Positions 28,517-35,716 of a stretch of DNA of 54,346 nucleotides are shown one piece after another. The DNA is from Asaia bogorensis (GTDB lineage: Bacteria > Pseudomonadota > Alphaproteobacteria > Acetobacterales > Acetobacteraceae): NCBI GenBank assembly GCA_945873195.1, contig CAMCDA010000008.1:1-54346 (forward strand), read 5' to 3'. A program made the translations under genes and the position numbers. Positions within the stretch are counted from its first letter, which is position 1, and each line of letters opens with the position of its first letter. A model generated the notes under the pieces. It saw only the letters and a program-made list of their open reading frames with translations, did no database searches and was not told the DNA's origin.

Positions 28517-29713
28517 TCAGCCACCCGGCTTCCGCCGGGAACCGTTGCGGCGGAGGAGAAACTCGCGGCCAACCTTCACCATCGGAGTGCCATCGTACTC
28601 AACGATATCCGCCGTCGCGTAGGTCTCATGCCAGGAGTCCGGAATGAAACTCCCGGTCCCGATCAGGTCGATCGGCGCCCTGGCATCCGCCATCACCCGG
28701 CATTTATCGACCCCGAAGCCCGACGACGCGACAATCCGGGCATGGGGGAAGCCGGCCTCATTCAGCGCCTCCCGCGTGAACCAGATCGCGGCGGCGGACA
28801 CGCCAGTGCCGACCAGATAGCGCAGTTCGGTCTCGCTGCGATGGCGGCGGATGGCGCCGGGGACGTTGCGTTCCAGCACGGCGTAGCTCTCGGCGGGGTC
28901 CAGCCCCTCCAGGAACCGCCCGCCATGGGTATCGAGGCGAAACGACAGCTTCCCGGCCGCGGCGAGGTCAGGGAAGCGGCGGCAGACCGCGATGGCGTCG
29001 GTGATCTCCTGGCCAAAATAATCGACCAGGACGGTCATGGCCTCCTCCGGGAACGTCTCCCGGAACATCTCGGCCGCGCGGACGGTCGAGCCCGCATAGC
29101 CAATCAGCGAATGGGGCATGGTGCCGAACCCGCGTTCGGCGCCGAACCAATGGGCGGTGCCGTCATTGGCATTGCCGACGAAGCCGCGCGCGCCTTCCTT
29201 CTGCGCCGCCTGGCTGCCGACCGCGGCGGCATAGGCCATCATGTCCTGCATCTCGGCCCCCGCGCAGTGGCGGGCGTCCATCGCCAGGAAGGCGACCGAC
29301 GGCAACGACATGGCCATCTGATAGGCGTTGTGGGCCGCCACGCAGGCCGGCCCGATCTTTTGCAGCAGCAGGGTTTCCAGGTCGGACAACGCGACCATGC
29401 CGCCGGAGAGATAGGCCATCGGCTCACCGGCGCCGACCCAGTCGCCTTCCTTGTAGACAAGATCAATGTCGATGGACACGCCCCGGTCGGCGGCGGCGGC
29501 GCGCAGCCAGTCGACCATCAGGCGGGGCGCGCAGACCACGGGCCTGCGCATGAAGACGGCATAGACCACCGGCTTGTCGCCGAACCGCGCGACGATCCGC
29601 TTGGTCCGGTTGAAGTAGCTGTCGGTCCGCGCGGCGATATCCGCCGCGAGTTCCGATACAACCGGGGTCTTTGCCCCTTCGGCGTTTGCGCCGTTTCCTC
29701 CCGCGTCGGCCAT
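28517..29713 (-). CDS. pncB: Nicotinate phosphoribosyltransferase
   Basis: A 398-residue NAPRTase-family enzyme that makes nicotinate mononucleotide from nicotinate and PRPP in NAD salvage. Seen: LAADIAARTDSYFNRTKRIV at the N-terminus, PVVYAVFMRRP, a GFVGNANDGTAHWFG segment, GTMPHSLIGYAG (family GTxxH block), and VASSGFGVDKCRVM. It starts 4 nt after the DAHP synthase stop, so it shares that transcript and its attenuation control. Confidence 0.85.
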   Translation of the reverse strand: MADAGGNGANAEGAKTPVVSELAADIAARTDSYFNRTKRIVARFGDKPVVYAVFMRRPVVCAPRLMVDWLRAAAADRGVSIDIDLVYKEGDWVGAGEPMAYLSGGMVALSDLETLLLQKIGPACVAAHNAYQMAMSLPSVAFLAMDARHCAGAEMQDMMAYAAAVGSQAAQKEGARGFVGNANDGTAHWFGAERGFGTMPHSLIGYAGSTVRAAEMFRETFPEEAMTVLVDYFGQEITDAIAVCRRFPDLAAAGKLSFRLDTHGGRFLEGLDPAESYAVLERNVPGAIRRHRSETELRYLVGTGVSAAAIWFTREALNEAGFPHARIVASSGFGVDKCRVMADARAPIDLIGTGSFIPDSWHETYATADIVEYDGTPMVKVGREFLLRRNGSRRKPGG

Positions 29714-29717
29714 GCCG

Positions 29718-31112
29718 CTACTGCGCGGCGAGAGCGGGCATCGCCGCCGGGGACCGGCGCCGCTTGAGCATCTCGGCCACGAGGAACGAGAGTTCCAGCG
29801 ACTGTTCGGCGTTCAGCCTGGGGTCGCAGAAGGTCTCATACCGTTCCGAGAGATTGGCCTCGGTCAGGCGGCGGGCGCCGCCGGTGCACTCGGTCACGTT
29901 CTGGCCGGTCATCTCCACATGGACGCCGCCGGCCCAGGTGCCCTCGGCTTCATGGGTGTCAAAGAAGCCGCTGACCTCGCCCAGGATCGCATCGAAGTTA
30001 CGGGTCTTGAGCTTGTTCGACGCCGTCGTTGTGTTGCCGTGCATCGGGTCGCAGATCCAGACGACCTTGTGGCCGGCGTTGCGCACCGCGCGGACCAAGG
30101 GCGGCAGCTTGGCGGCGACCTTGTCGGCCCCCATGCGGCTGATCAGGGTGATCCGCCCCGCCTCATTCGCCGGGTTCAAGGTATCGAGGATCCGCAGCAG
30201 GTCGTCGGGTTCCTGGGTCGGCCCGACCTTCATGCCCAGCGGGTTCTTCACCCCGCGGAGGAATTCGACATGCGCGCCATTGGCCTGACGCGTGCGGTCG
30301 CCGATCCAGAGGAAGTGCGACGAACAGGCATACCAGTCGCCGGTCGTGGAATCGACGCGGGTCAGCGCCTGCTCATACGGCAGCAGAAGGGCTTCGTGGC
30401 TGACGTAGAAATCGGTCTCCCGCAGGTCCCGCGTGGTGGCGCTGGTCATGCCGCAGGCAGTCATGAAGTTCAGCGTCTCGTCGATGCGGGCGGCGAGGCC
30501 CTGGTACTGGGCGATCAGCGGGGACTGGCCGACGAAGTCCAGGTTCCACTGATGCACCTGGTGCAGGTCGGCATAGCCGCCGGATGCGAAGGCGCGCAGC
30601 AGGTTCAGGGTCGAGGCCGACTGGAAGTAACCGAACTCCATCCGCGCCGGGTCGGGGATGCGGGCTTCGGGGGTGAATTCCGGTCCGTTCACGATGTCGC
30701 CGCGATAGCTGGGCAGTTCCACGTCGCCCTGCTTCTCCACGTCCGACGAACGCGGCTTGGCGAACTGGCCAGCCATGCGGCCCATCTTCACGACGGGGAC
30801 TGACGCGCCGAAGGTCAGCACGACGGCCATCTGGAGCAGCACGCGGAAGGTGTCGCGGATGACGTTGGCCGTGAAGTCCGAGAAGCTCTCGGCGCAATCA
30901 CCACCCTGCAGGACGAAGGCCTTGCCCTCGGCCGCCTGGCCCAGCGCTTCCTTGAGGCGGCGCGCCTCTCCGGCAAAAACCAGCGGCGGGAAGCGGCCAA
31001 TACGGGCTTCCATCGCGGCGAGCTTGTCGAGGTCCGGATAGGTCGGGACCTGGCGGATCGGGCAGGCGCGCCAGGAATCAGGCGTCCAGGGCGCTTGGGA
31101 TGCGGTCGTCAT
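29718..31112 (-). CDS. Class II 3-deoxy-7-phosphoheptulonate (DAHP) synthase
   Basis: A 464-residue class II (plant/AroH-II type) enzyme, first step of the shikimate pathway: PEP plus erythrose 4-phosphate to DAHP. Seen: the N-terminal [31 protein letters not shown] with the metal-binding Cys near 74, [14 protein letters not shown], and [13 protein letters not shown]. Length is typical. AAGGAG sits 7 nt before the ATG, which overlaps the stop of a 36-codon upstream frame. Class II enzymes supply Phe, Tyr and Trp pathways, consistent with the aromatic-codon leader upstream. pncB follows in the operon. Confidence 0.93.
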
Positions 31113-31219
31113 GATGTCACTCCTTGGGCGCCGTTATGTCGGGAAATGCGCGGGCTGGCTACTGGCCCCCCTGTGGGGTGGGCGGTCCGGGCTGGGGCGT
31201 CGACGTTGGAACGTCGCAT
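31109..31219 (-). CDS. 36-codon upstream frame coupled to DAHP synthase
   Basis: ATG at 31219 behind a strong AACAGGAGG site, ending with a TGA that overlaps the DAHP synthase ATG. The peptide ([18 protein letters not shown]...) is basic and polar with no known domain. Its strong start and 4-bp overlap suggest a coupling cistron rather than a functional protein. It lies after the attenuator terminator. Confidence 0.5.
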
Positions 31220-31286
31220 GGGAACCTCCTGTTCAGTTGCGGGAGGCCGGTCCACCGGGACGGAATTTTGCTGAGCAAAGCCTGGG

Positions 31287-31316
31287 CAAAACAAAAGCCG
31301 CCTCGGGGGGCGGCTT
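31287..31316 (-). terminator. Attenuator terminator of the DAHP synthase leader
   Basis: On the minus strand AAGCCGCC (31316-31309), a 6-nt loop and GGCGGCTT (31302-31295) form a perfect 8-bp stem, followed by TTTTGTTTTG (31296-31287). A standard intrinsic terminator between the leader peptide and the structural genes. Confidence 0.85.
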
Positions 31317-31342
31317 CGGTATCTTGCTATGGGTGCACGAAC

Positions 31343-31411
31343 CTAGACCGCCGGGGTGTAATACCAGCGGTACCAAAATCGTGAGGTCGGAAGGGCGATC
31401 AGCGTGTCCAT
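31343..31411 (-). CDS. Aromatic-rich leader peptide controlling DAHP synthase
   Basis: A 22-codon frame from ATG 31411 to TAG 31345-31343, too short for ordinary gene finding. Codons 12-18 read F-W-Y-R-W-Y-Y (TTT TGG TAC CGC TGG TAT TAC). RNA arm 1, ACCGCTGG (31371-31364), pairs with arm 2, CCGGCGGT (31354-31347), over 8 bp. Arm 2 can instead pair with GCCGCC of the terminator (31314-31309). A ribosome paused on the Trp/Tyr codons would cover arm 1, free arm 2 and prevent termination. No Shine-Dalgarno sequence; the promoter places transcription start almost at the ATG, as known for the leaderless trpL of Sinorhizobium. Confidence 0.85.
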   Translation of the reverse strand: MDTLIALPTSRFWYRWYYTPAV

Positions 31412-31418
31412 GATCGGC

Positions 31419-31447
31419 TATCTAACATCGGCCCCGGGTCGGCGCAA
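31419..31447 (-). promoter_or_regulatory. Promoter for the DAHP synthase leader transcript
   Basis: TTGCGC (31447-31442), 17-bp spacer, TAGATA (31424-31419). The -10 is imperfect (3 of 6) but its position, 7 nt before the leader ATG, is what a leaderless leader-peptide mRNA requires. Confidence 0.5.
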
Positions 31448-34954: not shown

Positions 34955-35716
34955 TCATCCGTTCGGCGGTTCCATGCCACGCTTGCGCAGCACGGACGCG
35001 CCCTCGGGGCCCGCCAGCATCGCCAGCATCGCCAGCAGACGCCGAGCGGCCTCGGCCTGGGGGGCTTGGGTGGCGATCGCACCGGCATAGACGGTGTGGT
35101 TCTGGATCTCCGCCGGCAGCACACCGACGATGGTCACACCCGGCACAACCAGAAGTTCGCTCATTTGATGCAGGGCAACCGATGCACGTCCATCGGCCAC
35201 CCGGGTCGCAACCAGGCCGCCCGGGACCAGAACCGCCTTGGCCTTGATGGCATCGGCGATGCCCAGGCGTTCAAACAGGCCGGCGAGGTAGATGCCGCTC
35301 GACCCGCCAGCGGCGGGATCGATATAGGCGACAGAAAGGGCGGCCAGCAGCATGGCGCGGAAGGCTGCCACGCTGGAGATATCGGGCTTCGGCGCGCCTT
35401 CCTTCACCGCGACGCCGATAGCGACCCGCGCCAAGGGAACCGCTCCGGTGACGCGGCCCTGCTGCGCCAACCGTTCCAGTCCATCACGCGGCAGCACCAG
35501 CAGATCGAAGGCCTCGCCGGCCTCGATCCGCCGCAGCAGCGCGCCGGCCGTGTCGTTCTGAATGACCAGCCGATCCCCCGCCGCCTCGAACGCGGGGGCG
35601 AGGTCCTGCACGACCGGCTTGAACGCGCCGGCCGTCAGGACCTTGACCTCGGCGGCCTGCACCATGGCGCCGGAGGCGGCCAGTAGCCCGACCAACGCCA
35701 GCGCCAGCCGCCTCAT
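34955..35716 (-). CDS. ModA-like periplasmic substrate-binding protein
   Basis: A 253-residue type 2 periplasmic binding protein: signal peptide (MRRLALALVGLLAASGAMVQA), then VKVLTAGAFKPVVQDLAPAFEAAG, DLLVLPRDGLERLAQQG, ARVAIGVAVKEGAPKPD, and YIDPAAGGSSGIYLAGLFERLG, as in molybdate/tungstate-binding ModA proteins. No ABC permease or ATPase is beside it. ATG overlaps the stop of the luciferase-like gene by 4 bp, so the two are co-translated. Ligand unproven. Confidence 0.82.
   Translation of the reverse strand: MRRLALALVGLLAASGAMVQAAEVKVLTAGAFKPVVQDLAPAFEAAGDRLVIQNDTAGALLRRIEAGEAFDLLVLPRDGLERLAQQGRVTGAVPLARVAIGVAVKEGAPKPDISSVAAFRAMLLAALSVAYIDPAAGGSSGIYLAGLFERLGIADAIKAKAVLVPGGLVATRVADGRASVALHQMSELLVVPGVTIVGVLPAEIQNHTVYAGAIATQAPQAEAARRLLAMLAMLAGPEGASVLRKRGMEPPNG

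Follow-up and report, generated by a model that had tools for sequence, protein, structure and literature searches.

What controls aroG, the class II DAHP synthase gene on the minus strand of the window (the whole 54,346-nucleotide stretch of DNA analysed here)? A short open reading frame with clustered Phe, Trp and Tyr codons lies upstream of it, and three questions arise: whether the region acts as an attenuator of the trp type, which codons such an attenuator would read, and whether aroG is its defining target. An initial annotation had proposed a leader with F/W/Y codons, four pairing arms and an intrinsic terminator. All of these parts were found in their proposed places (Table 1), and minus-strand positions 31447-31288 are confirmed as a complete ribosome-mediated attenuator ahead of aroG, which, as we infer from the sequence, it regulates. 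As is typical of trp attenuators, end-product codons are clustered in a short leader ORF (FWYRWYY within 22 codons) and the target belongs to the sensed pathway, being aroG in the window and trpG(D) in other genera. The aroG product scores 711.7 bits against TIGR01358 (cut-off 614.7) and also matches PF01474. Mimicry of arm 4 (GGCGGC) by arm 2 (GGCGGU) is confirmed, and the terminator was also called independently, at 31317-31294, by a terminator scan.

Table 1 Positions of the attenuator parts and of the genes that follow them in the window
Feature	Position	Strand	Basis or remark
Promoter -35 box, TTGCGC	31447-31442	-	Part of promoter 31420..31447
Promoter -10 box, TTAGAT	31425-31420	-	16-nt spacer to -35 box
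Leader ORF, 22 codons, MDTLIALPTSRFWYRWYYTPAV*	31343..31411	-	Translation
Control-codon cluster F12 W13 Y14 R15 W16 Y17 Y18			Within leader ORF; translation
Predicted sensing codons F12 W13 Y14 R15 W16	31364..31378	-	Overlap arm 1; stall folding
Arm 1, ACCGCTGG	31364..31371	-	Pairs with arm 2 in minimum free energy fold
Arm 2, CCGGCGGT, mimic of arm 4	31347..31354	-	Near-invariant 1:2 and 2:3 pairings
Intrinsic terminator (arms 3 and 4, T-rich tail)	31288..31317	-	Terminator scan, fold, conservation
Arm 3, GCCGCC	31309..31314	-	Conservation of 2:3 and 3:4 pairing
Arm 4, GGCGGC	31302-31297	-	3' half of terminator stem
T-rich tail	31296-31288	-	End of intrinsic terminator
Shine-Dalgarno sequence of second small ORF, AGGAGG	31225..31230	-	Sequence
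Second small ORF, 36 aa, decayed FDFDV homologue	31109..31219	-	SD/start context shared with intact relatives
aroG, class II DAHP synthase, putative regulated gene	29718..31112	-	TIGR01358 equivalog, PF01474
pncB-like gene (nicotinate phosphoribosyltransferase family)	28517..29713	-	NCBIfam, best 107 bits

The minimum free energy fold of 31420-31287 comprises the 1:2 hairpin and the terminator at -50.3 kcal/mol (z = -4.0; 0 of 200 shuffled sequences folded equally low), and the ribosome-free leader RNA forms the 1:2 hairpin plus terminator. For stall folding, a ribosome was placed at each leader codon and the RNA was cut before arm 4 emerges. With the A site at F12, W13, Y14, R15 or W16 the 2:3 structure forms (5.8 of its 6 pairs; -19.1 kcal/mol, nested hairpin included), with the A site at Y17 only part of the 2:3 pairing forms, and at Y18 and every later codon as far as the stop, arm 2 is covered, the 2:3 pairing is lost and only the terminator is left. 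The behaviour is that of a trp-type attenuator: the pairings are mutually exclusive, arm 1 is masked by a stalled ribosome and arm 2 by one that translates on to the stop codon. In equilibrium folding 3:4 outcompetes 2:3 even with a stalled ribosome, and the switch must therefore work through co-transcriptional kinetics, like that of E. coli trp.

A strict WYRWYY codon pattern (TGGTAYMGNTGGTAYTAY), searched in 397 genomes of the same family, matched six of them; five of the sites, including that in the window, lie directly 5' of aroG, and the remaining one is cut off by a contig end 140 nt past the leader. The looser pattern FWYR[W/R]Y matched 69 of the 397 genomes, whereas its reverse matched 14. 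Three of these matches proved on inspection to be false positives in coding sequence and were removed, leaving true elements in about 66 genomes from about 20 genera. The leader core SRFWYRWY..PA is kept in about 66 family genomes, which also carry a CCGGCGG-like arm 2 and a AAGCCGCC...GGCGGCTTT terminator. A covariance model found a single element in 28 of 33 congeners (21 of the 23 good genomes) and detected diverged elements in other alphaproteobacterial families. In G235 and G409 the apparent double elements lie at contig ends and score identically, and a second element in G371 is a weak 32-bit match that looks like noise. A collection of plasmids held no match to the element or to the small protein described below.

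The initial annotation had looked to related genera for a conserved short frame and for compensatory changes in the arms. The first expectation was borne out, with the frame, the F/W/Y cluster, the three pairings and the terminator all kept across genera and families and the terminator present in every aligned homologue. Among 25 diverse homologues, 86% of the 1:2 cells are paired, 98.7% of the 2:3 cells and 99.1% of the 3:4 cells (the outermost A-U pair of the 1:2 stem forms in only 7 of the 25), but double changes occur at two pairs only, both in the outer 1:2 stem. The core arms are nearly invariant and so can show little covariation; the support comes from conserved pairing, not from compensatory change. 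In the sister species (L002) the stretch from the leader core through the small ORF that follows differs from the window at 2 positions in 267 nt, compared with 74 in 1395 nt (5.3%) for aroG and 15 in 85 nt (18%) for the upstream intergenic region. Since this stretch, which runs up to the start of aroG, is more nearly identical than either neighbour, it is either under selection or was recently exchanged.

Which codons sense? In the model, stalls at F12 to W16 free the antiterminator and those from Y18 onward do not, and we therefore place the predicted sensor in the conserved FWYRWY, with F12, W13, Y14 (R15) and W16 as the sensing codons, rather than in the YY repeat. The Y17-Y18 repeat, which had been counted as part of the sensor, does not survive: it is not conserved, and a stall at Y18 gives termination in folding. 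The residue after FWYRWY is free to vary among homologues (Y, T, S, N, A, K, E, R, I or P), which is what one would predict if a stall had to mask arm 1 to have any effect.

The control codons wholly overlap paired bases, and the Phe and Tyr codons could therefore be conserved for structure instead of sensing. The attenuator would then be specific for tryptophan, reading W13 and W16 alone, with the other aromatic codons demanded by the 1:2 stem. The UUU of F12 and the UAC of Y14 do lie within that stem, trpG(D), a tryptophan operon, is the target of a large group of elements, and W13 is kept in leaders in which Y14 or W16 change (FWYRRY in L126 and L184, FWRRRY in L304, FWRRWY in L323). Against this stand the leaders of other families, which are mixed but differ in order and bases. 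The clusters YFARYFTRWY and RFYDRWY precede class II aroG, where the diverged leaders are YFARYFTRWYGPAA, in three genomes of family f56, and RFYDRWYIPAA, in family f122. RYFGRWF and RFYGRWF (leaders RYFGRWFPPAA and RFYGRWFPPAA) sit 5' of the small ORF described below, and RFWYVFY (RFWYVFYPTP) lies 5' of a class I DAHP synthase gene. With four distinct mixed clusters, a stem constraint alone is hard to accept as the explanation, and we regard a purely Trp-specific element as unlikely. The same homologues support the proposal of the initial annotation that a mixed F/W/Y leader serves as an aromatic attenuator before aroG. In family f34, at L292:377-1642 (minus strand), a mixed leader, MNLTGHQNRFWYVFYPTPLAPVGTRSA, precedes a class I DAHP synthase gene (aroFGH, TIGR00034) and, judged by its sequence, is an independent aromatic attenuator at the other class of DAHP synthase.

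A scan of the window with an E. coli-type sigma-70 consensus gave no hit at the promoter TTGCGC-16-TTAGAT, which is weak by the standards of E. coli. Comparison of homologous elements shows the geometry TTGNNN, a 16-17 nt spacer and NTANNN in 73 of 85, and in 68 of those 73 the end of the -10 box lies 7-8 nt from the leader ATG; in the window it lies 8 nt 5' of the ATG. A -10 box at so fixed a distance implies a leaderless transcript, and the leader mRNA thus probably begins at or next to its AUG. The trpL transcript of Sinorhizobium meliloti has been reported to be leaderless (PMC7298713).

Downstream of aroG in the window is a pncB-like gene whose NCBIfam matches fall below the equivalog cut-offs; as it starts 4 nt past aroG, it is probably co-transcribed. 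That the element controls a DAHP synthase gene, as first proposed, is true of the arrangement in the window, where aroG does lie downstream, but not of the element in general, for which aroG is a facultative and not a defining target. Within the window's genus the element lies 5' of the main aroG in seven genomes and 5' of a second aroG paralog in nine (all those in which the region upstream of that paralog is available), and in 12 of the 28 element-bearing congeners it adjoins neither copy. Elements of other genera are followed by trpG and then trpD, or by no aromatic gene, and several of those without an aromatic target have a convergent gene as their next large neighbour. Of the leaves on the aroG tree, the 46 linked to a leader (a count slightly inflated, like those of the clades, by duplicate loci from the same genome) fall into one clade of 31, which is the second paralog and spans other families, and three small clades in the window's genus; linkage requires four changes, as against about 41 with shuffled labels. 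The attenuated second copy of aroG at L279 (G537:C11:3110-4415) is interrupted by a frameshift, so that it gives two overlapping matches, and is possibly a pseudogene.

The near-constant partner of the element is instead an unannotated small ORF, with aroG or trpG(D) present only in some lineages. It was found in 81 of 91 elements (L226, L242, L187, L281 and L163 are examples), encodes the motif [FY]DFDV[IVL][TS]GP and a proline-rich tail in 17-70 codons and lies downstream of the terminator, about 140-170 nt after the FWYRWY codons; an SD-like sequence precedes most copies. It is found also at stand-alone elements and at those of families f37, f51 and f145. Among 71 distinct DNA versions the DFDV codons differ at third positions only. 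The search itself, which used the motif, left no room for change at positions 1 and 2, but flanking residues that it did not require are also conserved (G in 57 of 71, P in 64 of 71). An independent search with the motif pattern matched 24 of 200 family genomes (reversed control, 0 of 200), and each of the 24 matches has an attenuator immediately before it, five of these being variants that had escaped the leader pattern. Four representatives searched against Pfam and NCBIfam gave nothing credible. All 17 hosts tested encode a class II DAHP synthase, which is weak evidence of a link since 57 of 60 family genomes have one.

From this we conclude that the near-constant target of the attenuator is probably a new small protein, with aroG and trpG as facultative extra targets. 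A broader proposal, which we offer tentatively and would not yet call probable, is that attenuator and FDFDV gene make up a portable module, in which a switch for aromatic starvation would mainly yield a new small protein regulating chorismate-pathway enzymes such as class II DAHP synthase or anthranilate synthase. Such a module would have been joined repeatedly to aroG or trpGD operons and would otherwise stand alone, and the lineage of the window would have lost the small protein and kept the switch for aroG. In genus g58 (L215, L216, L217 and L219) the FDFDV ORF shares its reading frame with a cytosolic SBP_bac_11 (molybdate-binding-like) domain, to which it seems to be fused. The window itself encodes an SBP_bac_11-like protein at 34955-35716, with a luciferase-like gene just upstream, and an orphan element elsewhere (L241) is followed by a luciferase-like gene.

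In the window the ORF in the corresponding place keeps its Shine-Dalgarno sequence AGGAGG and the start context of its intact relatives, AACAGGAGGTTCCCATGCG, but has lost the motif, with AACGTCGAC in place of GATTTCGAC, and lacks about 44 nt by comparison with L254. A motif pattern search of the window's own genome (G000) found no intact copy elsewhere. The locus is best read as aroG under an attenuator, its first cistron having decayed. The stop codon of the small ORF overlaps the aroG start (ATGA), and the remnant may serve translational coupling to aroG.

The FDFDV gene also bears on the possibility that the terminated leader RNA, its peptide or both act in trans, in the manner of rnTrpL/peTrpL, with cis control of aroG secondary. 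The core sequence is extremely conserved, the element is strictly single-copy, also in genomes where it lies away from aroG and trpG (the 12 of 28 congeners above), and the probably leaderless arrangement recalls trpL of S. meliloti, where both the attenuator RNA and the peptide do act in trans (PMC7298713, PMC7143759). Yet leader peptide N-termini and linker sequences diverge, and the apparently stand-alone elements carry a target in cis, the FDFDV ORF, which removes the main reason for invoking trans action; we think it improbable. That a stray terminator merely adjoins a chance short ORF is refuted by the comparative data and has practically nothing left to recommend it: terminator-like sites are as frequent in the window as in shuffled sequence (4 found, mean 3.5), but every part of the element is conserved across genera and families, and between the window and its sister species too.

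A ribosome-mediated attenuator of the trp type, reading charged tRNA-Phe, tRNA-Trp and tRNA-Tyr jointly, with the FDFDV gene as primary target in the family and aroG as target in the window, is in our judgement highly probable. Transcription would start at or next to the AUG of the 22-codon ORF, probably leaderless, the promoter being defined by comparison and the start site deduced from it. With ample aromatic amino acids the ribosome would reach the stop codon and cover arm 2, the 3:4 terminator would form and the RNA would end near 31288. Should any aromatic tRNA run short, the ribosome would pause on F12, W13, Y14 or W16 and mask arm 1, leaving arm 2 free to pair with arm 3 ahead of arm 4 synthesis and letting RNA polymerase read through; here the pairing is calculated and the kinetics are presumed. 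Read-through in the window would extend into the decayed small ORF, coupled through ATGA to aroG, and on into aroG and pncB. Across the family the attenuator would primarily control the FDFDV gene, with aroG or trpG(D) as a facultative second target, and in the lineage of the window, where the small-protein gene has decayed, aroG would be the target.

The class of mechanism is classical. In E. coli trpL (RF00513, Trp_leader), as here, the control codons lie in arm 1 and the stop codon in arm 2, with alternative 1:2, 2:3 and 3:4 pairing and an intrinsic terminator; trpL, however, has a Trp pair and targets trpEDCBA, whereas the present element is mixed, probably leaderless and linked to aroG or the small protein. 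E. coli pheA (RF01859, Phe_leader; 18.2 bits against a gathering score of 55) shares Phe codons and the shape of the terminator but is Phe-only with a different target. Among alphaproteobacteria, rhizobial trpL (PMC7298713, PMC7143759) comes closest in style: it too gives a single short attenuator RNA, and its leader ORF is leaderless, as is predicted here, although its leader is Trp-only and lies before trpE(G). The sRNA RcsR1 (RF02552), which arises from the rhizobial trpL position, matches the element at 15.6 bits against a gathering score of 60. An Rfam search gave no family at its gathering threshold, and Trp_leader was not among the matches listed. The match of window positions 31293-31380 (minus strand) to RF00624, 'Pseudomonas sRNA P9', reached 22.7 bits (E about 0.003; gathering score 43); the two are alike in layout, and the match is not accepted as homology. 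The P9 layout is itself attenuator-like (an AUU AUU AUU ACC run, a UACCGCC hairpin, UAG and a terminator), and P9 may be a mis-described leader RNA.

The aroF gene of Corynebacterium glutamicum encodes a class I DAHP synthase. Its control by the AroR leader, with Phe-Tyr-Phe, is the closest functional precedent (Neshat et al. 2014, via PMC11802643; PMC4046766), an attenuator before a DAHP synthase gene; it is actinobacterial, its reported motif has no Trp codon, we see no sequence relation and these texts mention no small-protein partner. The view that a mixed leader at a DAHP synthase gene was undescribed must thus yield to this precedent, which nevertheless concerns a different DAHP synthase gene. 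A literature search, largely of open-access papers, turned up no report of attenuation in the Acetobacteraceae, nor of any at a type II DAHP synthase. What is new is a mixed-aromatic, apparently leaderless alphaproteobacterial attenuator that associates now with aroG and now with trpG, and a small-protein family linked to it. If the reading is true, one switch would account for a possible control of entry to the shikimate pathway without TyrR or TrpR in many alphaproteobacteria and would show an attenuator hopping among pathway genes (aroG, trpG), and the FDFDV family gains a testable physiological role through its linkage to an aromatic-starvation switch.

In one stand-alone element (L321; G199:C37, ~115800) an in-frame TAA replaces the TAC of Y14 (FW*RWY); control there may be broken or constitutive, a sequencing error being another possibility. 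Very short leaders ending in WYFTPLT or similar, followed by a like terminator, occur in families f66 and f93 (L287, L288, L290 and L296) as weak matches to the model (E 1e-5 to 7e-4), and the gene after the L288 leader encodes a GNAT acetyltransferase.
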